DNA of 38,288 bases from contig CAJOGQ010000037.1 of the NCBI GenBank assembly GCA_905234125.1, positions 1-38,288 on the forward strand, written 5' to 3'. This document shows, in pieces, positions 1,340-26,911 of the stretch. Within the stretch, counting starts at the first letter, position 1; every line of letters begins with the position of its first letter. The notes beneath the pieces were generated by a model. The model had not been told where the DNA came from. It saw only the letters and a list, made by a program, of their open reading frames with translations, and did not search any database. The DNA is from an uncultured Bacteroidaceae bacterium. Its GTDB lineage: Bacteria > Bacteroidota > Bacteroidia > Bacteroidales > Bacteroidaceae. A program made the translations under genes and the position numbers.

Positions 1340-2596
1340 ATGAAAGATTTCATCAAGGAGGCGAAGGTGGAGACGGCGGTTATCGTGGGTCTTATCACCC
1401 CTCAGCAGAATGAGAAGAAGACGGAAGAATATCTGAACGAACTGGAATTCTTGGCGGACACGGCTGGAGCCAAAGTCATCAAGCGTTTTACGCAGAAGGT
1501 GAATGGCCCGAGCAGCGTGACGTATCTGGGCAGCGGTAAGCTGGAGGAGATTGCGCAGTTCATCAAGGATCGTGAAGAGGCCAAGGAGCAGGAGGCTGGG
1601 AGCAAGGAGCAAGAGGGTGAGGAGACGGTGGGCATGGTCATCTTTGACGATGAACTGTCGGCAAAGCAAATCCGCAACATCGAGCAGGCGTTACAGGTGA
1701 AGATATTGGACAGGACGAGCCTGATTCTTGACATCTTCGCCATGAGAGCCCAGACGGCGGCGGCGAAGACGCAGGTGGAACTGGCTCAATATAGATATAT
1801 GTTGCCACGACTGACGAGGCTGTGGACGCACTTGGAACGTCAGCGAGGCGGTAGTGTGGGACTGAGAGGCCCTGGTGAAACACAGTTGGAGATGGACCAG
1901 CGCATCATCCGTCACCGCATCTCACTCCTGAAGCAGAGGCTCGTGGAGATTGAGCAGCAGAAGACGACGCAGAGGAAGAACCGTGGGCGACTGATCCGCG
2001 TGTCGTTAGTGGGCTACACGAATGTGGGCAAATCGACGCTGATGAACCTGCTGTCGAAGAGCGACATCTTTGCGGAGAACAAACTCTTTGCCACGTTGGA
2101 CACGACGGTCAGGAAGGTCATCATCGAGAACTTGCCGTTCCTCCTTTCGGACACGGTGGGATTCATCCGCAAGTTGCCGACTGACCTGGTGGAGTCATTC
2201 AAGAGTACGCTCGACGAGGTGAGGGAGGCCGACCTGCTGCTGCATGTGGTGGATATCAGCCACCCGGACTTCGAGGAGCAGATTCAGGTGGTGGAGAAGA
2301 CGTTGGGCGATTTGGGTTGTGCCGACAAGCCGATGATGATCATCTTCAACAAAATCGATGCCTACACTTGGGTGGAGAAGGAGGAGGATGACCTGACACC
2401 CCGTACGAAGGAGAACATCCCGCTGGACGAATTGATGCGCACATGGATGGCGAAGCTGAACGACAACTGCATCTTCATCTCAGCGGTGAAGAAGGAGAAC
2501 ATCGACACGCTGAGGGAGACGCTCTACAAGAAGGTGAGGGAGCTGCACGTGCAGAAGTATCCGTACAATGACTTCCTCTATCCAATAGAAAACTAA
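1340..2596 (+). CDS. hflX: GTPase HflX (ribosome splitting/rescue)
   Basis: A 418-residue translational GTPase of the Obg-HflX group. HflX family proteins bind the 50S subunit and can split stalled or heat-damaged ribosomes. Visible: the N-terminal HflX domain (YLGSGKLEE, VIFDDELS), the glycine-rich segment GGSVGLRGPGETQLE, the P-loop GYTNVGKST (residues 225-233), DTVGFIRKLP as the G3 region, and NKID as G4. The ATG at 1340 is preferred over an in-frame ATG at 1292 because that one lies upstream of the -7 box. Between about residues 80 and 97 the N domain carries a Glu/Lys/Gln-rich insertion made by a 7-base periodic array; most HflX proteins go straight from the helix to the FDDEL strand here. 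Confidence 0.96.
   Translation: MKDFIKEAKVETAVIVGLITPQQNEKKTEEYLNELEFLADTAGAKVIKRFTQKVNGPSSVTYLGSGKLEEIAQFIKDREEAKEQEAGSKEQEGEETVGMVIFDDELSAKQIRNIEQALQVKILDRTSLILDIFAMRAQTAAAKTQVELAQYRYMLPRLTRLWTHLERQRGGSVGLRGPGETQLEMDQRIIRHRISLLKQRLVEIEQQKTTQRKNRGRLIRVSLVGYTNVGKSTLMNLLSKSDIFAENKLFATLDTTVRKVIIENLPFLLSDTVGFIRKLPTDLVESFKSTLDEVREADLLLHVVDISHPDFEEQIQVVEKTLGDLGCADKPMMIIFNKIDAYTWVEKEEDDLTPRTKENIPLDELMRTWMAKLNDNCIFISAVKKENIDTLRETLYKKVRELHVQKYPYNDFLYPIEN
1584..1618 (+). repeat. Heptad array inside hflX (GCAAGGA type)
   Basis: Imperfect 7-base repeats such as GCAGGAG and GCAAGGA, about five units, in frame with hflX. They encode the acidic/polar insertion around residues 82-95. Same class as the arrays in sufB, sufD and sufS. 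Confidence 0.7.
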
Positions 2597-2659
2597 GGAA
2601 TCGCCGGGAAGGGGCAAAGAAACAAGGAATGAAGAAATTGAACCCAAAACAATGATAAT

Positions 2660-4438
2660 ATGAGAGAACTGACAGTAAACGAAATCGCTCAGTTGGAAGA
2701 GCGTGGATGTTGGGCTGAAGATTGGTCGGACATCATGGTGGATGAGGCTTTTGTGCCCACCCAAATGGAACAAGTGATGCTCTACGGGCATGTGGAAATC
2801 GGTAGTCTCAGCGGTTCTGTCGAGCTGGAAGAGGGCTTCCGTCGCCGTTGCTGTGTGCGGAACGCCGTGTTGCGCAACGTGACGATTGGTGATGATTGCT
2901 TGGTGGAGAACGTGCGTGGCTACATCTCCAACACGCAGATAGGCGACCGCTGCTACGTGGCCAATATCGGCGTCATCACCAATCAGGAGGGGTGCACGTT
3001 CGGATGCGGCACGGAGATTTCGGTGCTGAACGAGGGTGGCGATGGCAACATCGTCATCTTCGAGGGTCTGACCGCTCAACTGGCTTGGCTGATGGTGAAC
3101 TTCCCGAAAGTGAAGACACTGGTGGCCGAGCAGTCAACTCTCAACTCTCAACTCTCAACTCCCCACATCGGCTCCGGTTCCCGCATCATCGACGTGAAGG
3201 AGATGAACAATGTCCGCATTGGTGAGGGATGCGAAGTGCAGGGAAGTTGCAAGTTGACCAACTGCACGCTGCTGAGCACCGACGACGCCGGCACGCTCAT
3301 CGGGTCGGATGTCATCATCGAGGACAGCGTCGTCGCACCCGGCGCCAGCGTCATCGACGGGGCGAAAGTTTACTCGTGCTTCGTCGGCGAGTCCGTCCAC
3401 ATAGGCAAGGGCTTCTCTGCCGAGGCGAGCGTCTTCTTCGCCAACAGCTACATGGACAACGGCGAGTCGTGCGCGGCCTTCTGCGGACCCTTTGCCACGA
3501 GCCACCACAAGAGCACTCTGCTCATCGGCGGAGCGTTCTCATTCTACAACGCCGGTTCGGGAACCAATCAGAGCAACCACGCCTACAAGATGGGGCCGAT
3601 ACACTGGGGCACCCTCGATCGAGGCAGCAAGACGGCCTCCGGAAGCCACATTCTCTGGCCTGCCCATGTAGGCTCGTTCTCCATGGTGATGGGCAAGGTG
3701 CAGAATCATCCGCAGGTGCAGAAACTTCCGTTCAGCTACGTGATAGCCGAAGGCCGTGAGACCTGGATCATCCCGGGCATCAACATCCGCACCGTCGGCA
3801 CATGGCGTGACATCAACAAATGGCCGAAGCGCGACAAGCGTCCACTCAGCGCCCGCACCGACCTCATCAACTTCGCATTCCCCAACCCCTACATCATCCA
3901 GTCCGTGCTGGACGGAAAGCAACTCCTCGAAACCCTTCAGCAGGAGCATCCCAACGACACGGAGATTTTCACTTACCACGGATGCAAGATCAAACGCAGT
4001 GCGCTCTTGAAGGGCATCCAGTACTACGACCTCACCCTCAAGCTATTCCTCCACCGTTGCTTCACGTCGGGCGCCGTCGAGACCGAGGAGGCCAACGGAG
4101 GCCGATGGGTGGACATGATGGGTATGCTACTGCCGAAGAGCGAGCTGGAGAGCGTGGTGCGCGACATCAACAACAACACCATCGCCACTTTCGACGACCT
4201 GAAGGACATCCTCCAGCAGCTGCACCAGCACTACTCGCAGTACGAGCAGGCCTACGCCCAGCACCTCATGCAGATCTGTGGCGACACCCTCTTCGTCAAC
4301 CGCGACAACTGGCAGCAAGAGCTCGACGAAGCCTACGCCCTCTGGCTCAAGATGGTGAAAGACGACGCCGAGAAGGAGTACCAGATGGGCGATGTAGAGC
4401 CCGACCAGCTTCGCGACTTCTTGGAAACAATCAAATAG
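2660..4438 (+). CDS. DUF4954 family protein, left-handed beta-helix
   Basis: A 592-residue protein of the Bacteroidetes DUF4954 family. The N-terminus (LTVNEIAQLEERGCWAEDW) is typical. From about residue 40 to 250 it shows hexapeptide-like turns (VTIGDDCLVENV, TQIGDRCYVANI, GSDVIIEDSVVAPGASVIDG), as in left-handed beta-helix acyl- and sugar-transferases. The C-terminal third is mostly helical. No catalytic activity has been assigned to the family as far as I know; a nucleotidyl- or acyltransferase-like fold is inferred. A stretch STLNSQLST at about residues 159-167 comes from a 7-base array and looks like an insertion between helix coils. The gene follows hflX by 63 bases and ends at a clear terminator. 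Confidence 0.85.
   Translation: MRELTVNEIAQLEERGCWAEDWSDIMVDEAFVPTQMEQVMLYGHVEIGSLSGSVELEEGFRRRCCVRNAVLRNVTIGDDCLVENVRGYISNTQIGDRCYVANIGVITNQEGCTFGCGTEISVLNEGGDGNIVIFEGLTAQLAWLMVNFPKVKTLVAEQSTLNSQLSTPHIGSGSRIIDVKEMNNVRIGEGCEVQGSCKLTNCTLLSTDDAGTLIGSDVIIEDSVVAPGASVIDGAKVYSCFVGESVHIGKGFSAEASVFFANSYMDNGESCAAFCGPFATSHHKSTLLIGGAFSFYNAGSGTNQSNHAYKMGPIHWGTLDRGSKTASGSHILWPAHVGSFSMVMGKVQNHPQVQKLPFSYVIAEGRETWIIPGINIRTVGTWRDINKWPKRDKRPLSARTDLINFAFPNPYIIQSVLDGKQLLETLQQEHPNDTEIFTYHGCKIKRSALLKGIQYYDLTLKLFLHRCFTSGAVETEEANGGRWVDMMGMLLPKSELESVVRDINNNTIATFDDLKDILQQLHQHYSQYEQAYAQHLMQICGDTLFVNRDNWQQELDEAYALWLKMVKDDAEKEYQMGDVEPDQLRDFLETIK
3131..3164 (+). repeat. Heptad array inside the DUF4954 gene (CTCTCAA type)
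   Basis: CAGTCAA followed by three exact CTCTCAA units and a partial one. It is in frame and encodes QSTLNSQLSTP. This is one of the most regular arrays in the window. Confidence 0.9.
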
Positions 4439-4445
4439 TACTTGC

Positions 4446-4468
4446 GCGTGACGGTTTTCCCGTCACGC
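4446..4468 (+). terminator. Intrinsic terminator after the DUF4954 gene
   Basis: A perfect 9-base stem GCGTGACGG / CCGTCACGC with a 5-base loop, followed by CTTCTTTTTT. It lies between the convergent DUF4954 and DUF3108 genes. Confidence 0.85.
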
Positions 4469-4483
4469 CTTCTTTTTTAAGGA

Positions 4484-5263
4484 TTAGTTGCTCTTCGCCA
4501 AGTAGGCCTTGGCCGTGCCGAAACGTAGGTAGAAATCGATGCGGACGGGCATGTGGCGAGCATCGTCGGTGACGTAAAAACGGAGCAGCTCCTCATCATG
4601 ATTCTTCTCCTCATAGTCGAGCAGGGAGAAGACCAAGCAGTGATACTTCTTTCCGTCATTGGCTTTCCAGTCCTTTTTGCCTCGATAGACGAGCGTCTGC
4701 TCCTCCACTTTCTTTCCCGTGGCCATGGGAAAATGGATGCGCTGCCCCACCTTATAGTTGGCGGGATCGAACGACCGTGCCAGCGAGAGAATGGAGAGCA
4801 TGTCGTAGTTGCAGTCCTGGCTCTCATGGTGATGCTCGGACCACTCTCCGTGGCGATTCAGGAAATGTTGTTTCACATGGCTCTTGCCGTTGGGGTAGGT
4901 GTACCAAACTTCATCGACCGTGTAGTGCTTGCCCTCGAGCGAGCCCTTGCGGAAGTAGAGCGGCACAAGGTCGGGAGTGATGTAAGAGATCAGCGTGTCG
5001 CGCATCGTGAAGATGGCGTCGCATCGTTTGTTGCTTGTGAAGAGGAGGTCGTTGCGCAGGGCCGGCTGGTTCTTATAGTTGGCCGACTTCATCGTGTAGA
5101 AGGCCGAACCGCACTTCACCCATATAAACTTCCAGTTGAAGTAGAGGTCATACGTGAGCCGTTCCCCTGCCTTGAAGGCCGTGTTCTGGGTCGGGCACTG
5201 AGCCGAGAGCGTGAGAAACGGAAAGGCAAAAAGTGAAAAGAGAATGATGGCCTTCTGTTTCAT
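4484..5263 (-). CDS. DUF3108 domain exported protein
   Basis: A 259-residue protein with a signal peptide (KAIILFSLFAFPFLTLSAQ) and then a DUF3108-like domain: AFKAGERLTYDLYFNWKFIW near the mature N-terminus and alternating strands such as HFPMATGKKVEEQTLVY. DUF3108 proteins are periplasmic or outer-membrane associated in Bacteroidetes, with no firm biochemical role. The ATG overlaps the stop of the upstream 66-residue membrane protein (ATGA, 5260-5263). The gene is third in an operon after the S41 protease, which suggests an envelope role. Confidence 0.85.
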   Translation of the reverse strand: MKQKAIILFSLFAFPFLTLSAQCPTQNTAFKAGERLTYDLYFNWKFIWVKCGSAFYTMKSANYKNQPALRNDLLFTSNKRCDAIFTMRDTLISYITPDLVPLYFRKGSLEGKHYTVDEVWYTYPNGKSHVKQHFLNRHGEWSEHHHESQDCNYDMLSILSLARSFDPANYKVGQRIHFPMATGKKVEEQTLVYRGKKDWKANDGKKYHCLVFSLLDYEEKNHDEELLRFYVTDDARHMPVRIDFYLRFGTAKAYLAKSN

Positions 5264-5460: not shown

Positions 5461-5494
5461 ATTTATATATATAGAAGGATTTTCCCCTTCCCTG

Positions 5495-7222
5495 CTATTC
5501 TTTTCCGAGTATTTTTTTATATTCGCTTTGGTCGTGGAGCACACCGATGGCGGCCTTGATGTCCTCGTCGCCCTGTATGGACTCCTCCACCTTTCCGGCC
5601 ATGTAGTAGTAGCGCTTGATGACCTCCTGCGCCATCAACCGGCGTATGTCGCTCTGGTAGTGCTCCATCTCGCGGTCGAGATTGTGGGCGAGCTTCTTCT
5701 CCAGCGCCTCGAACTCAGGTTTGGCGTCCTCGTAGTAGCCCTCGAACTGTGCCGTCTTCTTCAGTTCCTCCAGACGCTTCTCGCTCACACGGTCATACTT
5801 GAAGTCACTCTCTTTCAGCATCTTCTTGAAGTCGTCAAAGTCCTGATCGGTGATGACCAAGTCCTTGGCCGACGGAATCGTGGCATGCTTCTGGAAATAC
5901 TGCGTTCCCCAGTCGATGAGCGCGTCGTCGTCGAAAAGATAGTACAGAAGCGTGGAATGGGAGGCGAGCACCCGTCTCGACTCGACGCTCCCTATCGCGG
6001 CGAGAGAATAGAAAACGATGGGCGAAATGCTGTCGTGCTTCACCGCCACATCGGGCTTAATGCCGCTTCCCTCTGTCACTTCACGTCCGCCAGCCGTGTG
6101 GAAGACCGTCTTCACGTTGTCCGCCTTCTCCGGACGCTTGCCCGTCTTGCGATAAATCTCAGCGTCATCACGCATCTTCTTGTAATCAATCTTCTGGATG
6201 CAACGTCCCGAGGGAATGTAATACTTAGCCGTCGTCATCTTCAAACTCCCGTTGTAGGGCAACTCGCGCGAACTCTGCACCAGTCCCTTGCCGAACGTGC
6301 CAGTACCCACCACGATGGCGCGGTCAAGGTCTTGCAGGGCTCCCGATACTATTTCGGAAGCGCTGGCCGTAGTCGCATCCACCAGGATGGCAAGAGGAAT
6401 CTCCAGATCGAGGGGCTCGTTGTTGGTCGTGTAAGTATACTTCGCCGCAATGTGCTTGCCCTTCGTCTCCACAATCGTCTGACCCTTCGGCACAAACAAG
6501 TTAACGATATCGACAGCCTCGTTCAGCAGACCGCCACCATTGCCGCGCAAGTCGAGGATGATGCTCTTCGCACCCTTCTCCTTCAGACTGATGACCGCCT
6601 TCCTGATCTCTTTGGAACATCCCTCCGTGAACTCCGTGAGACTGATGTAGCCGGCATCCTCAATCAGTCCCACGTAAGGCACAGCCGACTTCTTGATGCT
6701 ACGGCGAGTGATCTTGAAGTCACGTGGATTCTTCTCGCCAGGACGTTGCACCTTCAGCACAAACGTCGTGCCGGGCTCACCGCGCAATAGCTCACTCACC
6801 TCCGATGTGGTCTTGCCCTTCAAGTCCTTGTCGTCAATCTTCAGCAAGACATCACCCACTTGCAAACCCACCTCAGCGGCTGGCATGTCGGGATAGGGCT
6901 CATGGATGATGACCGTCGAGTCCTTCCGCATACGGATGATAGAACCGATGCCACCATACTTGCCCGTCGTCATCATCTTCAACTCGCCCATATCCTCTTC
7001 TGGATAATATACCGTGTAGGGGTCAAGCTCCTCCAACATGGCCTCAATGCCAGCACCAATCACCTTGTCTGCCTGTAGCGTATCTACATAGAAGAGGTCC
7101 AACTGGCGATAGAGGGCATTGAAAATATCCAGCGTCTTGGCCATCGTGAAGTTATGCTCCGTCTGTGCCGAGGAAACTAAAAACGTAAAACTAAAAACGA
7201 AAAGTGATACTATCTTTCTCAT
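5495..7222 (-). CDS. S41 family C-terminal processing peptidase with PDZ domain
   Basis: A 575-residue exported serine protease of the CtpA/Prc family, which trims or degrades periplasmic proteins from their C-termini. There is a signal peptide (IVSLFVFSFTFLVSSAQ), a PDZ domain at about residues 85-170 (GGIGSIIR, GLQVGDVLLKIDDKDLKGK) and the peptidase domain at about 190-360. The Ser-Lys dyad is visible as Ser287 in TASASE and Lys312 in GTFGKG, 25 residues apart as in known members. A helical C-terminal region of about 200 residues follows. The start at 7222 puts the signal peptide at the N-terminus. First gene of an operon with two envelope proteins. Confidence 0.95.
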   Translation of the reverse strand: MRKIVSLFVFSFTFLVSSAQTEHNFTMAKTLDIFNALYRQLDLFYVDTLQADKVIGAGIEAMLEELDPYTVYYPEEDMGELKMMTTGKYGGIGSIIRMRKDSTVIIHEPYPDMPAAEVGLQVGDVLLKIDDKDLKGKTTSEVSELLRGEPGTTFVLKVQRPGEKNPRDFKITRRSIKKSAVPYVGLIEDAGYISLTEFTEGCSKEIRKAVISLKEKGAKSIILDLRGNGGGLLNEAVDIVNLFVPKGQTIVETKGKHIAAKYTYTTNNEPLDLEIPLAILVDATTASASEIVSGALQDLDRAIVVGTGTFGKGLVQSSRELPYNGSLKMTTAKYYIPSGRCIQKIDYKKMRDDAEIYRKTGKRPEKADNVKTVFHTAGGREVTEGSGIKPDVAVKHDSISPIVFYSLAAIGSVESRRVLASHSTLLYYLFDDDALIDWGTQYFQKHATIPSAKDLVITDQDFDDFKKMLKESDFKYDRVSEKRLEELKKTAQFEGYYEDAKPEFEALEKKLAHNLDREMEHYQSDIRRLMAQEVIKRYYYMAGKVEESIQGDEDIKAAIGVLHDQSEYKKILGKE

Positions 7223-7243
7223 GTCGAAATGTAAATTTGCGTG

Positions 7244-7251
7244 CAAAGGTA
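7244..7251 (-). promoter_or_regulatory. -7 box of the S41 protease operon
   Basis: TACCTTTG on the minus strand, about 22 bases before the ATG at 7222. The upstream -33 area lies inside a heptad array. Confidence 0.65.
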
Positions 7252-7255
7252 CGAA

Positions 7256-7290
7256 AACTCTCAACTAAAAACTATAAACTAAAAGTTAAA
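7256..7290 (+). repeat. Heptad array, left arm (AACTAAA type)
   Basis: Five successive heptads beginning AACTCTC and AACTAAA, with strict 7-base period. Together with 7321-7355 it forms an imperfect inverted repeat between two divergent promoters. Confidence 0.85.
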
Positions 7291-7320
7291 GTATGTTTTG
7301 AGCGACAAAAAAGAAAGGGA

Positions 7321-7355
7321 AACTTCAACTTTTAGTTTTTAGTTTTTAGTTTTTC
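7321..7355 (+). repeat. Heptad array, right arm (GTTTTTA type)
   Basis: Five heptads, including two exact GTTTTTA units. The sequence is largely complementary to the array at 7256-7290, with 30 bases between them. Confidence 0.85.
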
Positions 7356-7367
7356 ACTTAAAATCCT

Positions 7368-7375
7368 TACCTTTG
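7368..7375 (+). promoter_or_regulatory. -7 box of xerD
   Basis: TACCTTTG ends only 5 bases before the xerD ATG at 7381. If used, the transcript would be nearly leaderless. Confidence 0.6.
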
Positions 7376-7380: not shown

Positions 7381-8325
7381 ATGGAAACAAAACCTGTCAA
7401 CAGTCAACAGTCAACTCTCAGCTCCAAAGACTCCCAGCGTATTGTGCGCCGATACTACCAGTACTTGAAATTGGAAAAGGGATTCTCGCCCAACACGGTG
7501 GAGGCTTACATGCGTGACCTCGACAAGTTCCTCATCTTCATCAAAGACGAGGGAAAAGACTTCCTCCATGTCCAACTCGACGACCTCCACACCTTCTCAG
7601 CCCTGATGAACGACATCGGCATCCAGCCCACATCCTTGTCGCGCATCCTATCTGGCGTGCGCAGTTTCTACCACTTCTTAGTGCTCAGCGACGTGCTCGA
7701 AATCAATCCCACCGAACTGCTCGAATTTCCCAAGAAGCCCAAGCATCTGCCCGATGTGCTGACCGTCGAGGAAGTGGATGCCATCGAGTCCGTCATCGAC
7801 CTTAGCCTGCCCGAAGGACAGCGCAACAAGGCCATCATCGAGACACTATTCTCCTGCGGACTCCGTGTCAGCGAACTCGTTACCCTCAAACTCAGCAACC
7901 TCTTTCTCGACGACGGCTTCATCAAGGTCGAAGGAAAAGGGTCTAAGCAACGCCTCGTGCCCATCTCCCAACAGGCCATTCACGAACTCCAGCTCTATTT
8001 CCTTGACCGTAATCTCCTTCCCATCCCAGCAGAGTATCAGGACTTCGTCTTTGTCAGCCATAGACGTAAGAAGCCCCTCACCCGTGTTATGGTCTTCCTC
8101 ATGATCAAAGACCTCGTCGATAGAGCCGGCATCCACAAGACCGTCTCTCCCCACACTTTCAGACACTCCTTTGCCACCTCTCTCCTCGAAGGCGGAGCCA
8201 ACCTTCGGGCTATCCAAGCTATGCTTGGCCACGAATCCATCGCTACCACCCAAATCTACACCCACATCGACACCACCCACCTCCGTGAGGAGATTCTTTT
8301 GCACCATCCCCGCAACATGAAGTAG
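7381..8325 (+). CDS. xerD: Tyrosine recombinase XerD-like
   Basis: A 314-residue site-specific recombinase. It has an N-terminal SAM-like DNA-binding domain (about 20-105, YLKLEKGFSPNTVEAYMRDL) and a C-terminal catalytic domain (about 125-305). All catalytic residues are present: Arg162 in GLRVSEL, Lys186 in GKGSKQR, His258 and Arg261 in HTFRH, His284 in GHE and Tyr293 in IYTH. XerC and XerD resolve chromosome dimers at dif, and an XerC-like partner lies at 35549-36442. The first 20 or so residues are unusual and partly encoded by a 7-base array (NSQQSTLSS). No other in-frame ATG lies before the conserved region, so this start is likely although the -7 box is very close. Confidence 0.93.
   Translation: METKPVNSQQSTLSSKDSQRIVRRYYQYLKLEKGFSPNTVEAYMRDLDKFLIFIKDEGKDFLHVQLDDLHTFSALMNDIGIQPTSLSRILSGVRSFYHFLVLSDVLEINPTELLEFPKKPKHLPDVLTVEEVDAIESVIDLSLPEGQRNKAIIETLFSCGLRVSELVTLKLSNLFLDDGFIKVEGKGSKQRLVPISQQAIHELQLYFLDRNLLPIPAEYQDFVFVSHRRKKPLTRVMVFLMIKDLVDRAGIHKTVSPHTFRHSFATSLLEGGANLRAIQAMLGHESIATTQIYTHIDTTHLREEILLHHPRNMK
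7394..7428 (+). repeat. Heptad array at the 5' end of xerD (CAGTCAA type)
   Basis: CTGTCAA, two CAGTCAA units, then CTCTCAG and CTCCAAA, in frame. It encodes the Ser/Gln-rich N-terminal residues of XerD. Confidence 0.85.
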
Positions 8326-15772: not shown

Positions 15773-17217
15773 GCGAGTCTAATTCATTTGTGCGTAGCCT
15801 TACTGAGAAGAAATATGAGTTTGGCTTCACCACTGACGTACATACGGAAATCATCGATAAAGGTCTCAACGAAGATGTGATTCGTCTCATCTCCGAGAAG
15901 AAGAGAGAGCCCGATTGGCTTTTGCAGTTCCGTTTGGAGTCTTACCGCTATTGGCTCACGCAGACGCAACCCGCTTGGGGACATGTGCATTTGCCTGAGA
16001 TTGATTACCAAGCCATCTCTTACTATGCTGATCCGACCGTGAAGAAGGGGCAGGGGAGTAAGGGGCAAGAGATTGACCCCGAACTGATGAAGACCTTCGA
16101 CAAGTTGGGCATTCCGCTTGAGGAGCGGCTGGCCTTGTCGGGCACAGCGGTCGATGCTGTGATGGATTCCGTGTCGGTCAAGACCACCTTCAAGGAGAAG
16201 CTCTCGGAGAAGGGCATCATCTTCTGCTCCATCAGCGAGGCCGTGAAGAATCATCCTGACTTGGTGAAGCAATATCTCGGCAGTGTGGTACCTCCCAAGG
16301 ACAACTACTTTGCTGCGCTCAACAGCGCTGTCTTCTCCGACGGCTCGTTCGTCTATATCCCCAAGAACACCCGCTGTCCGATGGAGCTTTCCACCTATTT
16401 CCGCATCAATGCGAGGAACACGGGTCAGTTTGAGCGCACGCTGATTGTGTGCGACGAAGGCTCTTACGTTTCTTATCTCGAAGGTTGTACGGCTCCGATG
16501 CGTGATGAGAATCAATTGCATGCGGCGATTGTGGAGATTGTAGTGATGGACAATGCTGAGGTGAAGTACTCGACGGTGCAGAACTGGTACCCAGGCGATG
16601 CCGAAGGACGTGGCGGTGTGCTCAATCTTGTGACCAAACGTGGTGACCTCCGTGGCGTGAACAGCAAACTCTCGTGGACACAAGTGGAGACAGGGTCGGC
16701 CATCACGTGGAAGTACCCATCGTGTGTCCTTCGTGGAGACAACAGCCAGGCCGAGTTCTACAGCGTGGCCGTGACTAACAATCATCAGGAGGCCGACACG
16801 GGCACGAAGATGATTCACTTGGGCAAAAACACTCGTTCGACCATCATCTCCAAGGGCATTTCGGCAGGTCATTCGCAGAATTCCTATCGAGGTTTGGTGC
16901 GAGTGGGCAAGCATGCCGATGGCGCCCGAAACTACTCATCCTGCGACTCACTTCTGTTGGGAAGTCAATGCGGAGCCCATACCTTCCCCTATATGGACAT
17001 CCACAACAACACTGCCACCGTGGAGCACGAAGCCACCACATCCAAGATTAACGAGGAGCAGCTTTTCTACTGCAACCAGCGTGGCATCTCCACCGAAGAG
17101 GCTGTGGGACTCATCGTCAACGGCTATGCCAAGGACGTCATCAACAAGCTTCCGATGGAGTTCGCCGTCGAGGCTCAGAAGCTCCTCAGCGTCTCGCTCG
17201 AAGGGACGGTCGGGTAG
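15769..17217 (+). CDS. sufB: Fe-S cluster assembly scaffold protein SufB
   Basis: A 482-residue component of the SufBCD complex, which builds Fe-S clusters in the cytoplasm. Family features: the N-terminal helical part ([20 protein letters not shown]), the central beta-helix with [20 protein letters not shown] and YLEGCTAPM, and the conserved C-terminal part ([17 protein letters not shown], then [20 protein letters not shown]). Around residues 92-102 it has a Lys/Gly/Gln-rich stretch ([12 protein letters not shown]) encoded by 7-base repeats, within a region that is variable in the family. The start overlaps the cvpA stop. Confidence 0.97.
16041..16072 (+). repeat. Heptad array inside sufB (GGGGCAA type)
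   Basis: Four imperfect heptads ending GGAGTAA and GGGGCAA, in frame with sufB. Same type as the arrays in hflX, sufD and sufS. Confidence 0.65.
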
Positions 17218-17227: not shown

Positions 17228-17287
17228 CGATACCTCATATCGATTACCACATCGTACCTCGTATCGATTACCATATCGTACCTCGTA
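17228..17287 (+). repeat. 12-base tandem repeat between sufB and sufC
   Basis: Five 12-base units alternate between TCGTACCTCGTA-like and TCGATTACCATA-like forms, so the higher-order period is 24. It fills most of the 82-base gap and ends 12 bases before the sufC ATG. This is the only intergenic gap inside the suf genes. Confidence 0.9.
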
Positions 17288-17299
17288 TAAGTTTTTAAT

Positions 17300-18037
17300 A
17301 TGTTAGAAATAAAAAATCTTCACGCCAAGGTAGGCGACAAAGAAATACTCAAGGGCATCAATCTGACCATCCGCGACGGTGAGATTCATGCGCTGATGGG
17401 CACTAATGGAGCGGGCAAATCCACGCTCTCCAACGTCATTGTGGGCAATCCTGCCTACGAGGTGACGGAAGGGTCGATTGTATTCAACGGACAAGACCTC
17501 CTCGCCATGAATACGGAAGAGCGGGCCCATGCCGGCATCTTCATGTCGTTCCAGGCTCCCATCGAGATTCCAGGGGTGTCGATGACCAACTTCATGCGCT
17601 CGGCAGTAAATGCTCGTCGTGAGGCATTGGGCAAGGAACCTCTCAAATCGACCGACTTCCTCAAGGTGATGCGTGAGAAGCGCAAGCTGGTCGAGATTGA
17701 CCCCAAGCTCATGAACCGCTCCGTCAACGAGGGCTTTTCAGGAGGCGAACGTAAGCGCAACGAGATTTTTCAGATGGCGATGCTCGAACCCACGTTCTGC
17801 ATCCTCGACGAGACCGATTCGGGCCTCGATGTCGATGCCCTCCGCATTGTAGCAGAGGGCTTCAACAAGCTCCGCACCCCTGAGACTTCTGCCATCGTCA
17901 TCACCCACTACCAGCGTCTGCTCGACTACATCCGTCCCGATTTCGTCCATGTGCTCATCGACGGACAGATTGTCAAGACCGGCACCGCCGAACTTGCCCA
18001 GCAGATTGAGGAACAAGGATTTGAAGCATATCTATGA
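17300..18037 (+). CDS. sufC: Fe-S cluster assembly ATPase SufC
   Basis: A 245-residue ABC-type ATPase that drives the SufBCD complex. It has Walker A GTNGAGKST (residues 34-42), the signature FSGGERKR (146-153), Walker B ILDETDSGLD (around 168-177, catalytic Glu171) and the switch His in VITHYQRLL. Its stop overlaps the sufD start (ATGA, 18034-18037). The gap to sufB holds a tandem repeat that must lie in the ribosome-binding region or just upstream of it. Confidence 0.97.
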   Translation: MLEIKNLHAKVGDKEILKGINLTIRDGEIHALMGTNGAGKSTLSNVIVGNPAYEVTEGSIVFNGQDLLAMNTEERAHAGIFMSFQAPIEIPGVSMTNFMRSAVNARREALGKEPLKSTDFLKVMREKRKLVEIDPKLMNRSVNEGFSGGERKRNEIFQMAMLEPTFCILDETDSGLDVDALRIVAEGFNKLRTPETSAIVITHYQRLLDYIRPDFVHVLIDGQIVKTGTAELAQQIEEQGFEAYL

Positions 18038-19269
18038 AGAGTGAACAGCAATACATAGAACTCTATCAGGAAGCCTCCGACCTCATCAAGCGCAAGAGTT
18101 GTGAGGTGATGAATGCCGTGCGCGACGAAGCCTTTCAGCAGTTCATGTCGATTGGTTTCCCCACTCGAAAGGCCGAGCGCTACCGCTACACCGACGTCGC
18201 CACCGCCTTTGCCCCCAACTACGGTATTTCCCTCGCGCCCCTCGATGTCAAGCCCTCCTTATACATATATACTATAAAGGATGCGCCCATCGATGTGGCT
18301 CCCTACTACCACAAGATAGCCGATGCCCACGATCCCATCACGGCTCTTAACGCCGCTCTGGTACACGATGCTCTCCTCATCCATGTGCCTAAGAACACAT
18401 TGGTGGAAGATCCCATCGTGGTCGATAACTGGCTTCGTGGCACCTCGCCGACCATGATGAACCGACGCATCCTCATCATCATGGAATCCGGGGCAGAGGC
18501 AACCATCATCATCAATGATAGAGAGGGGCAAGGAGCAAGGGGCGAGGAGCAGGCAAGGCTTCTGACCACCCAGGTCATTGAGGTCTATTGCCACGACAAT
18601 GCCCGTCTCGACCTCTATGAGATAGAGGACACGACGCCACTCTGTTCACGCTTCAGCAATGTTTATATCCATGAGGGACGCGACTGCTCCGTCAAGCACA
18701 ACAGCATCACCCTCTTCAATGGTCAGACTCGCAACCTCTGCGATGTCTATCTGCGTGGTGAGAACTCCGAAGTGACCCTCAACGGCTGTGCCATTGGCAG
18801 TGGGTCTCAGCATATCGACAACAACACGTTCATTCGTCACGAAGTGCCCCATTGTACCTCGAACGAACTCTACAAATATGTTGTGGATGGTCAGTCGGTC
18901 GGCGCTTTTGCTGGCAAGATCTTGGTGGAGAAAGACGCTCAGAAGACCACCTCGCAGGAGACCAACGCCAACCTTTGTGCCTCGTCCGATGCCCGCATGT
19001 ACACCCAGCCGATGCTCGAAATCTATGCTGACGACGTAAAGTGCGCCCATGGTTCCACCGTGGGAGTGATGGACGAGACCGCCCTCTTCTACATGCGTCA
19101 GCGAGGCATCCCTGAAGCCGAAGCCCGTTCCTTGCTCAAGAACGCCTTCATGGGGCAGGTCATCGACCAAATCAAGTACGAGCCTCTCCGTCAGAAACTC
19201 TATGTGAAAGTGGAGAAGCGCTTCCGAGGCGAATTGGAGAAGTGCGATGACTGCAGACTCTGCAAGTAA
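18034..19269 (+). CDS. sufD: Fe-S cluster assembly protein SufD
   Basis: A 411-residue paralogue of SufB and third member of the SufBCD complex. Seen: the N-terminal helical region (FPTRKAERYRYTDVATAF), the beta-helix (GENSEVTLNGCAIGSGSQHI) and the C-terminal signature (GSTVGVMDETALFYMRQRG, then EAEARSLLKNAF). Around residues 163-172 the segment DREGQGARGEEQ is encoded by a 7-base array and interrupts the strand pattern. The gene ends only 4 bases from the convergent sufS stop, leaving no room for a separate terminator. Confidence 0.96.
   Translation: MKSEQQYIELYQEASDLIKRKSCEVMNAVRDEAFQQFMSIGFPTRKAERYRYTDVATAFAPNYGISLAPLDVKPSLYIYTIKDAPIDVAPYYHKIADAHDPITALNAALVHDALLIHVPKNTLVEDPIVVDNWLRGTSPTMMNRRILIIMESGAEATIIINDREGQGARGEEQARLLTTQVIEVYCHDNARLDLYEIEDTTPLCSRFSNVYIHEGRDCSVKHNSITLFNGQTRNLCDVYLRGENSEVTLNGCAIGSGSQHIDNNTFIRHEVPHCTSNELYKYVVDGQSVGAFAGKILVEKDAQKTTSQETNANLCASSDARMYTQPMLEIYADDVKCAHGSTVGVMDETALFYMRQRGIPEAEARSLLKNAFMGQVIDQIKYEPLRQKLYVKVEKRFRGELEKCDDCRLCK
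18525..18552 (+). repeat. Heptad array inside sufD (GGAGCAA type)
   Basis: GGGGCAA, GGAGCAA, GGGGCGA and GGAGCAG in strict 7-base register, in frame with sufD. Confidence 0.85.
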
Positions 19270-19273
19270 AATA

Positions 19274-22180: not shown

Positions 22181-22184
22181 TATA

Positions 22185-22212
22185 GGGGTTAGAGTATAGA
22201 GTTGAAAGTTAT
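22185..22212 (+). repeat. Heptad array over the radical SAM gene start (GAGTTGA type)
   Basis: GGGGTTA, GAGTATA, GAGTTGA and AAGTTAT in register. The last heptad includes the first bases of the likely ATG at 22211. Confidence 0.75.
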
Positions 22213-23083: not shown

Positions 23084-23151
23084 GAATTTGTCCTCAATCT
23101 TTTATTCCCGAAGATATAAGAAAGTAAGTTTCCAACGAGCAATATATGTGG

Positions 23152-23188
23152 TTTTACCATGTAATAACTATGGTTTTATTTGGTAAAA
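23152..23188. repeat. Short inverted repeat in the gap before the HU-like gene
   Basis: TTTTACCA (23152-23159) and TGGTAAAA (23181-23188) are exact inverted copies 21 bases apart. They sit in a 202-base AT-rich gap that has no other clear feature; an operator is possible. Confidence 0.35.
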
Positions 23189-23285
23189 TAATATGTATTA
23201 CTATAATTGAAATGAATAAAACACAATAATCGATTGCCTTGTTCGTTGTTATGAATAAGGTTTAACTATAAAAAGGAAAACGAAT

Positions 23286-23674: not shown

Positions 23675-23803
23675 GTATGTGAATGGTCGTTTTATCAACT
23701 TGAATATTTCAAAATCTGAGCATATGGGGGGTGAAAATCTGTCAAAAAGCGTGGAAAAGTGAAAAAAGTGGGGATGGATGATGTGTGATTGCAAACTTTT
23801 CAC

Positions 23804-23811
23804 TACCTTTG
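23804..23811 (+). promoter_or_regulatory. -7 box of rpsO
   Basis: TACCTTTG, 86 bases before the rpsO ATG, leaving a leader of about 80 bases. Confidence 0.65.
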
Positions 23812-23826
23812 CAGTCGTTTTTGACG

Positions 23827-23855
23827 AGCCAGTGATTCGGCTGAAAGGATTCTGG
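23827..23855 (+). promoter_or_regulatory. Possible structured leader of rpsO
   Basis: AGCC (23827) can pair with GGCT (23839) and the overlapping CCAG (23829) with CTGG (23852), so two exclusive short stems are possible. S15 represses its own mRNA through leader structures in several bacteria. The stems here are short, so this is tentative. Confidence 0.3.
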
Positions 23856-23897
23856 TGCGTTAAACAACACATTATTAATAATTATATACAATAAATT

Positions 23898-24167
23898 ATG
23901 TACTTAGATTCAGCAAAGAAGGCAGAGATTTTCGCCGAGTATGGCGCATCTGCCACTGACACCGGTTCTTGCGAGAGCCAGATTGCACTTCTCACTTATC
24001 GTATCCAGCACCTCACGGAGCATGTGAAGGCTAATCACAAGGATTTTGTGACGAACCGTTCACTGGTGAAGCTCGTGGGTCAGCGTCGTCGTTTCCTCTC
24101 TTACCTCAAGAAGAAGGACATCAACCGCTACCGTGCAATCATCAAGAAACTTGGCTTGCGTAAGTAA
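23898..24167 (+). CDS. rpsO: Small ribosomal subunit protein S15
   Basis: An 89-residue protein of the 30S platform that binds 16S rRNA. It shows the S15 pattern: FAEYGASATDTGSCESQIAL, the HLTEHVKANHKD segment, and the C-terminal LVGQRRRFLSYLKKKD followed by RYRAIIKKLGLRK. Full length. Its last 26 bases overlap the 3' end of the acyltransferase gene on the other strand, and there is no terminator between them. Confidence 0.98.
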   Translation: MYLDSAKKAEIFAEYGASATDTGSCESQIALLTYRIQHLTEHVKANHKDFVTNRSLVKLVGQRRRFLSYLKKKDINRYRAIIKKLGLRK

Positions 24168-25053
24168 CGGCCTGCCGTTTCAACCATTCCTCTTTGGTTC
24201 GGCTCCACCGTTTGTGTGTCCAAAGCCACATTTCGGGATGTTCCTGAATGTCGGCTTCGAGCATTTTGAAGTATCGTCCGGTCACCGTGTTTTCAGGCAC
24301 GTTGGCCGGATGGTCTTCTAATGGGATAACTTCGAGGTGGTAGTAGCCTCGTCTGGGTCGGCTCATGCGTCCGTAGCAAAGGAAGGCATCAACTTTGCGG
24401 GCAATGTGCTCAGTTCCGATGAAGACGGCTGTGTCGTGATTGAGGAATGGCACGAAGTGGTGGATGCTGCTCCATTTGGGTTGTTGGTCGCTGATGAATC
24501 CGATGGTGTAGTTGCCACCTTGCTTGCGGAATTGGAGGATGCGCCGGAAAGTCTCTTTCATTTCGATGTTTTCGCCACCATACTGACCGCGTATTTCGAG
24601 GAAGAAGCGGTTCATCACCTTGTCGTAGATGTGGTGGTAGATTTGTGCTGTCGTGCTCCAGGGAAGCAGATGGTAGCTGATGGAGGAAATCCATTCCCAG
24701 TTGCCGAAGTGGCTGAGGTAGAGGAAATGGAAAGGGCGGCCAGCGTCATGGCGTTTCCTGATTTCGTCGAGTCCTCCAAAGGTCATGCGTCGCATCATCT
24801 CCTCTTTCGACATGGAGAGCATCTTGATGACCTCCACGAAATTGTCGCAGAACTGGTGGTAAAATTTGCGTTCTATTTCTTTCAGTTCCTTTTCCGATTT
24901 GTTTGGGAAAGCCGTGCGCAGATTCTCCCTGACCACCTTGGTGCGATAGAATCGCCTTGCGAACAGGCTACAGAAATCGGAAAAGGCGTAAAGCACGGGA
25001 AACGGCAACAGACTGACGAGCCACAGGAGTCCCTTCACAAATCGGTATTTCAT
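24142..25053 (-). CDS. Lipid A biosynthesis-type acyltransferase (LpxL/HtrB family)
   Basis: A 303-residue membrane-bound acyltransferase. It has an N-terminal hydrophobic anchor (FVKGLLWLVSLLPFPVLYAF) and the catalytic HX4E motif at His115-Glu120 (SHFGNWEW). GFISDQQPK and the C-terminal HPEMWLWTHKRW are typical of late lipid A acyltransferases, which add a secondary acyl chain at the inner membrane. The ATG at 25053 gives the standard N-terminus; upstream in-frame sequence is a heptad array. It is the last gene of a five-gene operon and follows a glycosyltransferase 9 gene by 11 bases. Its 3' end overlaps rpsO in antisense. Confidence 0.92.
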   Translation of the reverse strand: MKYRFVKGLLWLVSLLPFPVLYAFSDFCSLFARRFYRTKVVRENLRTAFPNKSEKELKEIERKFYHQFCDNFVEVIKMLSMSKEEMMRRMTFGGLDEIRKRHDAGRPFHFLYLSHFGNWEWISSISYHLLPWSTTAQIYHHIYDKVMNRFFLEIRGQYGGENIEMKETFRRILQFRKQGGNYTIGFISDQQPKWSSIHHFVPFLNHDTAVFIGTEHIARKVDAFLCYGRMSRPRRGYYHLEVIPLEDHPANVPENTVTGRYFKMLEADIQEHPEMWLWTHKRWSRTKEEWLKRQAVTYASQVS

Positions 25054-25055
25054 TT

Positions 25056-25097
25056 GGTTTAAGGTTAAGGGTTTAGAGTTAAGGGTTGAGGGTTCAG
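25056..25097 (+). repeat. Heptad array at the GT9/acyltransferase junction (GGTTTAG type)
   Basis: Six heptads in perfect 7-base register, such as GGTTTAA and GGTTAAG. It encodes the last residues (LNPQPLTLNP) and the stop of the GT9 protein and covers the gap to the next gene. The longest regular array in the window. Confidence 0.92.
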
Positions 25098-26135
25098 CGT
25101 GGCGAGCGCTTTCTTCACAATGACGTCGGGTGAGATGTTCATGCAGCGCATGTCGCCAAACTGACAAGGTTTCTTGCCATAGATGGAGCATGGACGGCAG
25201 GGAAGGTCGAGTTGGATCTCGCGGTCGGGTGTCTGCCCATAGCCCGTGAATCCAGCTTTTGGATGAGTGGCTCCCCAGATGGAGAGTACTGGTATGCCGA
25301 AGATGGAGGCGATGTGCATGTTGGCTGAATCCATCGAAATCATCAGGTCAAGTTGCGACATCAGCAACATCTCATTCTTCAAGCCTCCTAACTTAGTTGA
25401 CAGTTGACAGTTGGCAGTAGGCGGCTGTGTCCATTCGGAGAGGATGTCGGCCTCCTTCTTGCCAGCTCCGAAAAGGAACACCTTGCATCCATGCTCAGTC
25501 AACTGCTGAACCACCTGACGCATCCGGTCGAGGGGATAGATCTTCTGTACATGAGCAGCAAAGGGAGCTACACCCACCCATTTCTCGTCAGGTTGCTTAT
25601 GGCCAGCCACCTGTCTCACAGTAGCAAAGGACTCTTGCCGGAGGTTGATGGGGGTGGGTTTGGAGAGGTCGATGGGTAGGCCTAAGGCCATGAACACATC
25701 GACGTGTCGTTGGGTCATGAGGGGGAGGGCAGTGCGCTCTTGTGCATGCCCAATCAGTGCCTTTTTCGCTTTTCGTCCCTTGTCGATGACGGCAACTTTC
25801 GTGCCACTCATGGCAAAGCAGGTGCGCAGATATTTGGAACGCAACACATCGTGCAGGTCAGCTACAGCATCGTAATGTCCTGTCTTCAGTTGGTTGTAGA
25901 GTTTGGTGAGGCCAATGATGCCGTCGTAATCGGCAAAGTCGATGCCTCTGACCTGCACGTTGGCAGGCAACCACTCGAACATGGGCACAAAGCGGGTGCG
26001 TGTCAGCATGGTGATGCGCAGGTCAGGATGTTGGGTGGCCAATGCCTGAAGCACAGGCACGGTCATAGCCACATCGCCCATCGCGCTGAAACGCATGACG
26101 AGCAACCGCTTGATGGATTTGTGGGAGCCGAACAC
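25065..26135 (-). CDS. Glycosyltransferase family 9 (heptosyltransferase-like)
   Basis: A 356-residue protein of the heptosyltransferase family, which adds sugars to the lipopolysaccharide core on the inner face of the membrane. Seen: the N-terminal LLVMRFSAMGDVAMTVPVL, and the C-terminal nucleotide-sugar domain with VGVAPFAAHVQKIYPLDRM, VFLFGAGKKEAD and SMDSANMHIASIFGIPVLSI. The start is GTG at 26135. Two parts come from 7-base arrays: an internal TANCQLSTKL stretch at about 240-250 and the C-terminal tail ATLNPQPLTLNP. The paired acyltransferase gene supports a role in lipid A-core synthesis. Confidence 0.93.
   Translation of the reverse strand: MFGSHKSIKRLLVMRFSAMGDVAMTVPVLQALATQHPDLRITMLTRTRFVPMFEWLPANVQVRGIDFADYDGIIGLTKLYNQLKTGHYDAVADLHDVLRSKYLRTCFAMSGTKVAVIDKGRKAKKALIGHAQERTALPLMTQRHVDVFMALGLPIDLSKPTPINLRQESFATVRQVAGHKQPDEKWVGVAPFAAHVQKIYPLDRMRQVVQQLTEHGCKVFLFGAGKKEADILSEWTQPPTANCQLSTKLGGLKNEMLLMSQLDLMISMDSANMHIASIFGIPVLSIWGATHPKAGFTGYGQTPDREIQLDLPCRPCSIYGKKPCQFGDMRCMNISPDVIVKKALATLNPQPLTLNP
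25391..25418 (+). repeat. Heptad array inside the GT9 gene (TGACAGT type)
   Basis: ACTTAGT, two exact TGACAGT units and TGGCAGT, in register and in frame. The gene reads the complementary strand. Confidence 0.85.
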
Positions 26136-26138
26136 TTT

Positions 26139-26173
26139 TTAGTTGACAGTTGAGAGTGGGCAATTGACAGTTA
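26139..26173 (+). repeat. Heptad array at the 104-residue/GT9 junction (ACAGTTG type)
   Basis: Five heptads (TTAGTTG, ACAGTTG and so on) in register. The last bases form the stop codon of the 104-residue gene and the array fills the gap to the GT9 start. Confidence 0.85.
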
Positions 26174-26485
26174 GGCATAGAGCCTATGGGCGTTCTGACG
26201 GCGATAAGTCCACGCGAAGTAAAGGCACAGGCCGATGGCCACAGCCGTGAAGAAGATTCCCCACATGGCGGTGTTAGAACCTCCATCAGTGCCTGTGAGG
26301 AAGTTCAGGTGAGAACGAAGGGTGTCAATCACTGTGCTGTCCACACCTAATGTGTCAAGAATCTGTTCTGGCACACTCAGCGAATCAACCGATTTCGAAG
26401 GAATGGAATCGGGGGGGAGAATAGGCTTGTCGATAACTGGATGATGGATGCGTCCAGGATAAGCGATGTCTAATAATTGCATCAT
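26171..26485 (-). CDS. Small single-pass membrane protein, unknown
   Basis: A 104-residue protein without a recognised family. It has a Pro/Ser/Asp-rich first half (IDKPILPPDSIPSK, SVDSLSVPEQILDTLGVDST) and one membrane helix near the C-terminus (TAMWGIFFTAVAIGLCLYFA), followed by a basic tail (WTYRRQNAHRLYA), so the long N-terminal part probably faces outward. Either ATG of the MM pair may be the start. It sits between a 110-residue membrane protein and the GT9 gene in a same-strand run. Its stop codon lies within a heptad array. Confidence 0.7.
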   Translation of the reverse strand: MMQLLDIAYPGRIHHPVIDKPILPPDSIPSKSVDSLSVPEQILDTLGVDSTVIDTLRSHLNFLTGTDGGSNTAMWGIFFTAVAIGLCLYFAWTYRRQNAHRLYA

Positions 26486-26493
26486 AGTTCTTG

Positions 26494-26549
26494 AAATGTT
26501 AAATGTAAAATATTAAATGTAAAATGTAATAAGATGTCAAATGTTTAAC
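26494..26549 (+). repeat. Heptad array between the 110- and 104-residue genes (AAATGTA type)
   Basis: AAATGTT, three AAATGTA units and AAATATT, then three looser heptads (GTCAAAT, GTTTAAC). It fills the gap and touches the stop of the 110-residue gene. Confidence 0.88.
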
Positions 26550-26877
26550 TTAGGTAGATGACCTGACTGACGAGCAGTCCGATGAGGAAACTGGTTGCAT
26601 TGCACAAGGTGCTGTAAATGAGCGCCTGCTTCAACTGCTTCACGAAAATGAGATACCACAAGGTCTCGACCACCACCACAATCAACTCTCCCGCCAAGAT
26701 GCTCCCCATGCCACCATCCACATGAATCAGATAGAGGTTCAACGGCACGTTCGTCAGCACATTCACCACCACCGATGCACCCAGCACTTTCTTTCTCCGC
26801 TCTCCCATCAACCACAGCACCCCACCTTCAATCAGAATGGTTGGCACCAACGCCATCAGCAATATCTCTACCATCAT
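26545..26877 (-). CDS. Small multi-pass membrane protein, unknown
   Basis: A 110-residue hydrophobic protein with about three to four membrane segments (VEILLMALVPTILIEGGVLW, VLGASVVVNVLTNVPLNLYL, AGELIVVVVETLWYLIF, CNATSFLIGLLVSQVIYL) and a short basic loop GERRKKV. No family recognised. It starts 14 bases after the MFS gene stop, so it may act with that transporter. The stop lies at the edge of a heptad array. Confidence 0.75.
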   Translation of the reverse strand: MMVEILLMALVPTILIEGGVLWLMGERRKKVLGASVVVNVLTNVPLNLYLIHVDGGMGSILAGELIVVVVETLWYLIFVKQLKQALIYSTLCNATSFLIGLLVSQVIYLS

Positions 26878-26883
26878 AGATGT

Positions 26884-26911
26884 GTCAAATGTCAGATATC
26901 AAATGTCATCC
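26884..26911 (+). repeat. Heptad array at the end of the MFS gene (GTCAAAT type)
   Basis: GTCAAAT, GTCAGAT, ATCAAAT and GTCATCC in register. Read on the minus strand it gives the last residues and the TGA stop of the MFS gene. Confidence 0.85.

Follow-up and report, generated by a model that had tools for sequence, protein, structure and literature searches.

The window analysed here, a 38,288-nt contig of an uncultured Bacteroidaceae bacterium (CAJOGQ010000037.1, positions 1 to 38,288; assembly GCA_905234125.1) that belongs to a genus of rumen bacteria, carries dispersed short arrays of tandem heptanucleotides whose units differ from one array to another. Their arrangement is most readily followed around xerD. 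Between xerD (ATG at 7381, plus strand) and a divergent S41 peptidase gene (ATG at 7222, minus strand), a left arm of ACTAAAA-type heptads (7254..7290) and a right arm of TTTTAGT x3.6 (7330..7354) form an inverted pair, neither arm assigned to a strand, and the two together fold as a hairpin with a z of -4.8. The consensus of Bacteroidetes -7 boxes is TAnnTTTG. The right arm lies 13 nt 5' of the -7 box of xerD (TACCTTTG, 7368..7375, plus strand), itself 5 nt before the ATG, and the S41 gene has its own -7 box at 7244..7251 on the minus strand (CAAAGGTA as written on the plus strand, TACCTTTG on the minus). Heptads also enter both coding regions, as AAACTAA/AAACGAA units in signal-peptide codons of the S41 gene (7174..7203, minus strand) and as GTCAACA units encoding an N-terminal extension of XerD (7396..7424, plus strand) that is absent from five aligned XerD rows of congeners. 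In the invertible promoters of Bacteroides the -7 box lies between the inverted repeats; here both boxes lie outside the arms, and a promoter of that type was rejected for this locus.

Period seven stands out both in the window and in a larger sample of the genome. Segments at a given lag were scored with +1 for a match and -1 (lax score) or -2 (strict score) for a mismatch. At lag 7 the window holds 7 segments under the strict score, where 100 order-2 Markov simulations average 0.23 and never exceed 2, and 15 under the lax score, against a simulated mean of 0.86 and maximum of 3. Under the lax score lag 8 has none, and lags 6, 9, 12 and 15, multiples of three at which segments are expected in coding sequence, have 7, 10, 12 and 11. 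An initial annotation of this DNA had made its case for a process working in 7-base steps depend on an excess of lag 7 over lags 6 and 8, and this excess is borne out in 420,089 bases (the window and 20 further stretches, about one sixth of 2.7 Mb), where lag 7 has 91 segments, its neighbours 6 and 8 have 16 and 8, respectively, and the codon multiples 9 and 12 have 30 each. At scores of 16 or more the lag-7 count is 35, with none at lags 6 and 8 and 2 at lag 9. Tandem 7-nt units in excess of neighbouring periods are what characterizes heptanucleotide simple sequence repeats, of the kind known as short tandemly repeated repetitive sequences (STRRs) or long simple sequence repeats (LSSRs). The sixteen arrays first listed in the window are reduced by the lax score: twelve coordinates reach a lag-7 score of at least 9, whereas those at 16041, 19506, 20552 and 21728 reach 4, 4, 5 and 7. 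Tandem Repeats Finder reports 10 of the 12 confirmed sites and misses those at 22185 and 26884.

Comparison with relatives (G000 denotes the source genome of the window and other G numbers the compared genomes) shows that at xerD the slot persists while the heptad within it changes. A -7 box precedes the gene at 29 of 30 loci of the genus, with a divergent box within 190 nt at 26, and a lag-7 array occupies the slot at 16 (G000, G002, G003, G007, G009, G010, G011, G013, G014, G018, G020, G034, G035, G036, G064 and G068). The right-arm unit is TTTTAGT in G000 and G007, TTTTCAC in G002 and G034, ATTCCTC in G003 and G010, TCATTCC in G011, ATTCGTC in G013, CTAAACT in G014, TAACTCC in G068, AATTGTC in G020, ATTATCA in G036 and CCTAATT in G018, in every case upstream of TAnnTTTG. 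A single arm is found in G009, G018 and G035 and two different units in G034, and in G064 the match between the halves, judged by eye, continues through the -7 boxes. Array positions fixed across distant relatives, which the initial annotation would have counted against its proposal, are thus half in evidence: the slot recurs at these loci and its sequence differs. Upstream of xerD in G006, G026 and G016 (L381, L382 and L383), an 8-nt step (TTCAATTC/GAATTGAA) runs between the -7 boxes, so that the period is not always 7.

The same placement is found at other promoters of the genus, where the -33 slot, immediately 5' of the -7 box, is taken up by arrays whose unit varies by species. A TAnnTTTG was counted as promoter-like when it lay between genes and no more than 120 nt from the start of one. 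In 1.44 Mb of the genus, 35 such sites, drawn from 11 genomes, are preceded by a lag-7 array whose end lies 3-13 nt from the -7 box; their arrays represent 17 unit classes. At sites free of arrays, the TTTG expected of a -33 element lies 17-22 nt upstream in 88 of 284 cases (21 for a control gap of 27-32 nt), as against none of the 35 sites with arrays (p 9e-6). The register of the heptads relative to the -7 box is non-uniform (p 0.00045; 29 of the 35 arrays could be scored), and no sharp peak is seen in the distance from -7 box to ATG. Divergent pairs of -7 boxes contain arrays in 15 of 48 cases in array-rich genomes, against 2 of 44 for four motif controls pooled, and in 5 of 44 cases in other members of the genus, against 1 of 43 controls. 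Units can differ even between sisters: at one promoter, G017 and G025, which are 94% identical over 34 kb, carry AATTCCT x5 and AAACTCT x5, respectively, at the same position.

Units were classified in a genus-wide set of 273 arrays (20 members, 1.44 Mb), which comprises AGTTGAC and its variants (85), TTTTCAC (45), CCTAATT (44), AGTTTTT (17), AGGAGCA (13) and 69 arrays with none of these; the common units differ between species. That the arrays share a period and no sequence, as first supposed, does not hold: read on the promoter-reading strand, 42 of the 91 arrays in G000 fit the loose consensus MAYTNYY, against 12.5 after permutation of the letters (maximum 21), for a consensus that is post hoc, having been seen in the same data before it was tested. 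The fit extends to 116 of 218 arrays over the five rich genomes G000, G025, G017, G016 and G003, and to 13 of 15 in G028 (3.9 permuted, maximum 8). It weakens when each distinct unit counts once, to 8 of 35 in G000 (4.1, maximum 10) and 11 of 30 in G025 (4.0, maximum 10), with 7 of 9 in G028 (2.0, maximum 7), and in G004, G015, G026, G029, G030 and G033 it is absent or inside the permuted range. Neither TAACTGA as a repeated word nor its class, in the form AACTGAT, is among the top units of the genus, the complete unit list having been examined for G000 only. At non-orthologous loci (L271, L269 and L270) the arrays are composite, with AATTAGG heptads adjoining heptads of TGTCAAC or AGTTTAG.

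Neighbouring arrays are often inverted partners. For 39 pairs spaced by 20-130 nt the counts of inverted, direct and other pairs are 20, 5 and 14, where shuffling of partners gives 3.6, 3.7 and 31.7. One class, here called class A, is a dispersed palindrome with a conserved core, laid out as (AGTGAAA)n, core ATCTAAGTTAC...GTAACTTAGAT, (TTTTCAC)n. Its ends are matched in 32 of 37 members of the genus, up to 98 times (G014), and in 1 of 24 genomes of other families, and the reversed-pattern control gives zero matches within the genus; together with the inverted pairs, these ends overturn the initial statement that there is no sign of inverted termini. Twenty copies were read from G014, and the 19 that could be parsed have their inner repeats separated by 29-43 nt. 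At one locus compared in 12 congeners, the element is present in five (G025, G017, G003, G002 and G068) and absent from seven (G006, G005, G026, G066, G016, G012 and G009), some of which hold other sequence, so that not all are clean empty sites. Class A thereby shows two marks of a miniature inverted-repeat transposable element (MITE), namely conserved terminal inverted repeats in many dispersed copies and, at this one locus, presence and absence at an orthologous site. Over 36 copies the two arms match at the variable heptad base in 38 of 58 positions, against 52% when shuffled, with shuffles reaching as high at a frequency of 0.0075. Palindromic arrays fold as long hairpins (z -9.4 and -10.0; -4.0 for the stretch L390, which is shorter than the element), and CCGAATGG, considered as a core motif, shows a weak tie to arrays (9 of 64 near one).

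Arrays also enter genes. By the rough gene calls of a simple open reading frame caller, the 273 arrays divide into 172 intergenic, 76 in genes and 25 at gene edges, and those in genes are found mainly when the unit has a stop-free strand: 59 of 143 arrays with a stop-free strand lie in genes, a group that includes closed AGTTTAG variants, versus 4 of 61 with stops on both strands, the 69 unassigned arrays being excluded. With no factor common to 7 and 3, a unit containing a stop blocks all three frames, and arrays that do lie in genes add peptide repeats in 7-residue steps; the bias in location fits wide writing of arrays followed by removal where genes break. Besides the XerD N-terminus and the S41-peptidase signal peptide, the window genes concerned are hflX (open reading frame 1292-2596), with GGAGCAA-type heptads at 1582..1624 on the plus strand in a loop that is indel-rich among congeners; a DUF4954 gene (2660-4438), with TCAACTC heptads at 3134..3166 on the plus strand that encode STLNSQL; sufD (18034-19269), with AGGGGCA/AGGAGCA heptads at 18524..18551 on the plus strand; and a glycosyltransferase 9 gene (25065-26135), with an AGTTGAC array at 25395..25422 on the minus strand, in a loop that has extra heptads in G016. 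Orthologue comparison places several in-gene arrays in variable loops. In several congeners the DUF4954 loop holds heptads, either perfect or decayed, and the loops of the sisters G017 and G025 differ in length by exactly 21 nt; the glycosyltransferase 9 gene of G016 is longer than that of G025 by exactly 42 nt, as heptads. The N-terminal loop of HflX ranges among congeners from a few to some 60-70 residues, with or without heptads (L176-L204).

The remaining arrays of the window, none assigned to a strand, lie between genes or at their junctions: a weak GTTAGAG/GTTGAAA array in an intergenic stretch (22183..22210, score 9), a GGTTTAG/GGTTAAG array at the junction of two minus-strand genes that also encodes the last residues of glycosyltransferase 9 (25056..25100), an intergenic AGTTGAC-type array (26141..26172), an AAATGTT/AAATGTA array that fills a 59-bp intergenic gap (26494..26545) and a TGTCAAA array at a gene junction (26883..26908).

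The step of change is 7 nt, and sisters differ by whole heptads in part of the cases. Seven array indels separate G017 from G025, of 1, 3, 7, 7, 21, 33 and 70 nt, so that four are multiples of 7; over four sister pairs and one further locus, multiples of 7 make up 5 of 14 array indels versus 5 of 136 elsewhere (Fisher p 0.0007). Such whole-unit variation in length between close relatives is a further mark of heptanucleotide simple sequence repeats.

In this sample the lag-7 excess is largely, not absolutely, confined to the one genus, and it should be borne in mind that much of the compared DNA was chosen from array-rich genomes. The genus takes in the rumen metagenome-assembled genome RUI029 (labelled Bacteroidaceae bacterium), as judged from identical match coordinates and score in G017 and in the genome of locus L060. 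The AGTTGAC pattern has from 0 to 460 matches across 37 genus members; a reversed-pattern control is uninformative for it, as its backwards reading is a rotation of AGTTGAC itself. Several AGTTGAC-poor congeners keep the period with other units, the counts at lags 6, 7 and 8 being 1, 15 and 7 in G028 (AAGAATT), 1, 8 and 1 in G004 (AAATGGT), 0, 6 and 0 in G029 (AAGAAGT and AATTATG) and 2, 6 and 0 in G015. Little excess is seen in stretches of G030 (5, 6 and 5), G033 (3, 5 and 1) and G019 (3, 1 and 0), and none of the sampled stretches of G010, G023, G035, G006, G011 and G013 has a lag-7 segment. Small samples can miss clustered arrays, since G010 and G011, whose 40-kb stretches are free of them, have 298 and 127 AGTTGAC matches genome-wide. 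Outside the genus, the lag-7 and lag-6 counts are 3 and 12 in 324 kb from four sister genera of the same family, and 4 and 10 in 249 kb pooled from 18 genomes of other families of the order (stretches of 0.4 to 20 kb, two of which, G051 and G055, read as N). The proposed 7-base-step process accordingly stands in part: the period is kept with other units in some congeners, and indels fall on whole heptads, while several sampled congeners show no lag-7 excess.

These observations lead us to propose, with roughly even confidence, that the arrays are heptanucleotide repeats which replication errors create and keep rewriting and which selection then sorts, some being retained as promoter elements. 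The 7-nt step would arise by slipped-strand copying; a unit could spread from arm to arm by fold-back template switching within a palindrome, and new sites might be seeded by the dispersal of palindromic elements. At promoters, the array may stand in for the -33 element and offer a platform to RNA polymerase, or to a regulator tolerant of any MAYTNYY-like heptad. Loss of mismatch repair was rejected as a cause, MutS (MutS_V) being found in 81 of 81 genomes. Several points weigh against this proposal. Slippage leaves the recurrence of a few related units at unrelated sites unexplained. No heptad array is present in the xerD slot at 14 of the 30 loci, and in G006, G012, G016, G026 and G066 the slot has words such as TTCAATTC that repeat with another step. 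An array covers the very stretch in which TTTG is sought, and the absence of TTTG therefore shows replacement of the slot and not activity; the register gives p 0.055 when distinct units count once, and related copies are not independent. Just 1 of 7 array indels is a multiple of 7 in the pair G006/G026. No enzyme is linked: Y1 transposase, found in 20 of 45 genus members, has no match in G000 or G014, and of 25 Y1 loci 9 hold some lag-7 array and none has class-A ends. Finally, G060, a genome of another family, has 36 AGTTGAC matches and 2 lag-7 segments in 40 kb, so that the genus limit is not absolute.

One alternative is plain drift of simple sequence repeats, in which polymerase slippage by 7 nt, an idea credited to Mrazek 2007, produces arrays everywhere and the positional patterns mark only the sites where they do no harm. 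Whole-heptad indels and the stop-codon filter on array location would both follow from it, and two reports describe heptads as the commonest long repeat class in most surveyed genomes (PMC4679880, PMC4692102), but it predicts neither the inverted pairing, nor the spacing of 3-13 nt to the -7 box, nor the recurrence of a few related units, and we regard it as unlikely. The spacing and register at promoters, being stereotyped, would be better served if a protein that binds tandem MAYTNYY came first and selected the promoter arrays, the others being by-products. Changes in repeat number might then also cause phase variation, on the model of hmw1A/hmw2A in Haemophilus influenzae, where 7-bp promoter repeats tune hmwA expression (PMC2424069). 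Interchangeable units speak against strict sequence recognition, however, and many arrays lie in genes or between convergent genes; we regard this precedence of a regulator as unlikely to a similar degree. The class-A palindrome is what a MITE-like or REPIN-like family would explain: a transposase acting in trans would move small palindromic elements whose ends are the arrays, and lone arrays would be remnants. Its conserved inverted ends and core, the numbers of end matches per genome (at most 98, with the reversed control empty within the genus), the 20 copies in G014 and the locus with the element in 5 of 12 congeners and without it in 7 all agree with such a family. Yet inverted pairing covers just part of the arrays, the in-gene arrays inspected show no core, and class-A ends are missing from all Y1 loci, Y1 being the one transposase family searched; we hold mobility in trans to be rather improbable as the origin of the arrays. 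The specific case of a REPIN with its RAYT (REP-associated tyrosine transposase) was rejected, since the palindromes flank none of the 25 Y1 loci and neither G000 nor G014 has a Y1 match.

Two further explanations were weighed. Loss of the hairpin nuclease SbcCD could let palindromic repeats accumulate in this genus. SbcD passes the model's threshold in 6 of the 45 genus members, as compared with 3 of the 4 genomes from sister genera, and in none of the 21 genomes with at least 10 AGTTGAC matches (p 0.023). The array-rich genomes, however, form nearly one cluster in a glycosyltransferase tree of 30 genomes (2 changes), so that the association is confounded with phylogeny and rests on about one or two independent events; moreover, the SbcD-bearing G024 (34) and G034 (18) carry the class-A element (p 0.24), and most genomes are incomplete. 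We judge this loss quite improbable as the cause. If the repeat had recently been acquired horizontally, from Cyanobacteria or others, this would account for the mostly cyanobacterial origin of AGTTGAC x4 loci among the 80 listed by name of at least 118 stretches selected for that exact repeat, and MacGregor proposed transfer for TAACTGA (PMC4679880). Some congeners without AGTTGAC nonetheless show other heptads, and in at least 114 of the AGTTGAC x4 loci, counted with four named Bacteroidales loci excluded, direct pairs (19) outnumber inverted ones (5), beside 46 of other kinds, which sets these loci apart from the genus; transfer seems to us very improbable indeed.

Beyond the reading we prefer stands a more tentative suggestion about promoters, which we consider somewhat doubtful but worth stating. 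Promoters of one type in the genus may have, in place of the -33 element, a palindrome with arms of four to five tandem heptads. Its period, symmetry and -7 register would be preserved, while the sequence of the heptads could vary within a loose consensus and would be exchanged wholesale between species; the same heptad-making process would edit conserved proteins in 21-nt steps. If arrays do stand in for the -33 element, they would form a promoter part specified less by sequence than by period and symmetry. Why bacterial genomes favour heptads is an old open question. One genus with array-poor sister genera and close species pairs shows presence and absence, unit replacement and whole-heptad change at the same sites, and mutation and selection thus become separable.

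Heptad repeats are a recognized kind of sequence, and what is new here is the promoter slot, the turnover of units at orthologous slots and the exact 21- and 42-nt entry into conserved proteins. The details of cyanobacterial STRRs behind the first likeness drawn below are general background. The STRRs and heptanucleotide repeats of Calothrix, Nostoc and Xanthomonas, which include the GGGAATC heptads that Rehm 2015 describes in Xanthomonas, share with the present arrays a period of 7, several units per genome and a length that varies between close relatives; they are largely intergenic, as the present arrays may be by rough gene calls (PMC4692102). Cyanobacteria also carry the AGTTGAC unit, among the loci listed by name. 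The arrays of the genus differ from STRRs in their inverted pairing, in the site just upstream of the -7 box, in the differing units at orthologous slots and in the in-frame entry into conserved genes; direct pairs exceed inverted ones at the mostly cyanobacterial AGTTGAC x4 loci, whereas inverted pairs are commoner in the genus. The initial remark that no described equivalent was known in Bacteroidales has to be given up: MacGregor 2015 reports TAACTGA repeats from Beggiatoaceae, Cyanobacteria and five Bacteroidetes, among them the Bacteroidales species Paludibacter propionicigenes with two sets, and cites Mrazek 2007 both for heptads outnumbering every other class in most genomes and for a polymerase contact of 7 nt (PMC4679880). 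Those repeats are likewise direct heptad repeats near gene starts, but they consist of one fixed unit, mostly right before start codons, with related heptamers rare as repeats in that genome, in contrast to the many units and the -33 slot found here (PMC4679880).

Other resemblances are more partial. BrickBuilt of Porphyromonas gingivalis, a Bacteroidales MITE with bidirectional promoter activity in E. coli reporters, is also intergenic and also combines tandem repeats with a small inverted-repeat element, but its unit is of 23 nt and lies between a leader and a tail, whereas 7-nt units here form the inverted arms and change between species (PMC4596501). The hmw1A/hmw2A repeats share with the present arrays the 7-bp tandem repetition at promoters, and their count generally correlates with transcript level; they concern two promoters of one species with 9-28 repeats, and the available part of the report makes no mention of a palindrome (PMC2424069). 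A search of the open-licence literature turned up no report of heptads in this genus, nor of promoters with heptad arms. Repetitive extragenic palindromic (REP) sequences go with a RAYT transposase, and the operators of Streptomyces antibiotic regulatory protein (SARP) type are sequence-specific sites of a known regulator with their own spacing; the units here are by contrast interchangeable. REP and REPIN elements are short dispersed palindromes in many copies as here (PMC3733652), while the arms in the genus are tandem heptads and no Y1 transposase is linked among the 25 loci; the likeness to the SARP-type operators lies in heptameric repeats upstream of a promoter box (PMC5930380).

Of structured RNAs, Rfam at gathering thresholds, applied to five sources, returns four tRNAs and nothing else. 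The window holds two tandem repeats of longer period, one of 50 nt in 2.5 copies (36928-37051) between or across two tRNA genes (36868-36941 and 37087-37158), and the other of 24 nt in 2.4 copies (17231-17288) between an open reading frame ending at 17217 and one starting at 17300.

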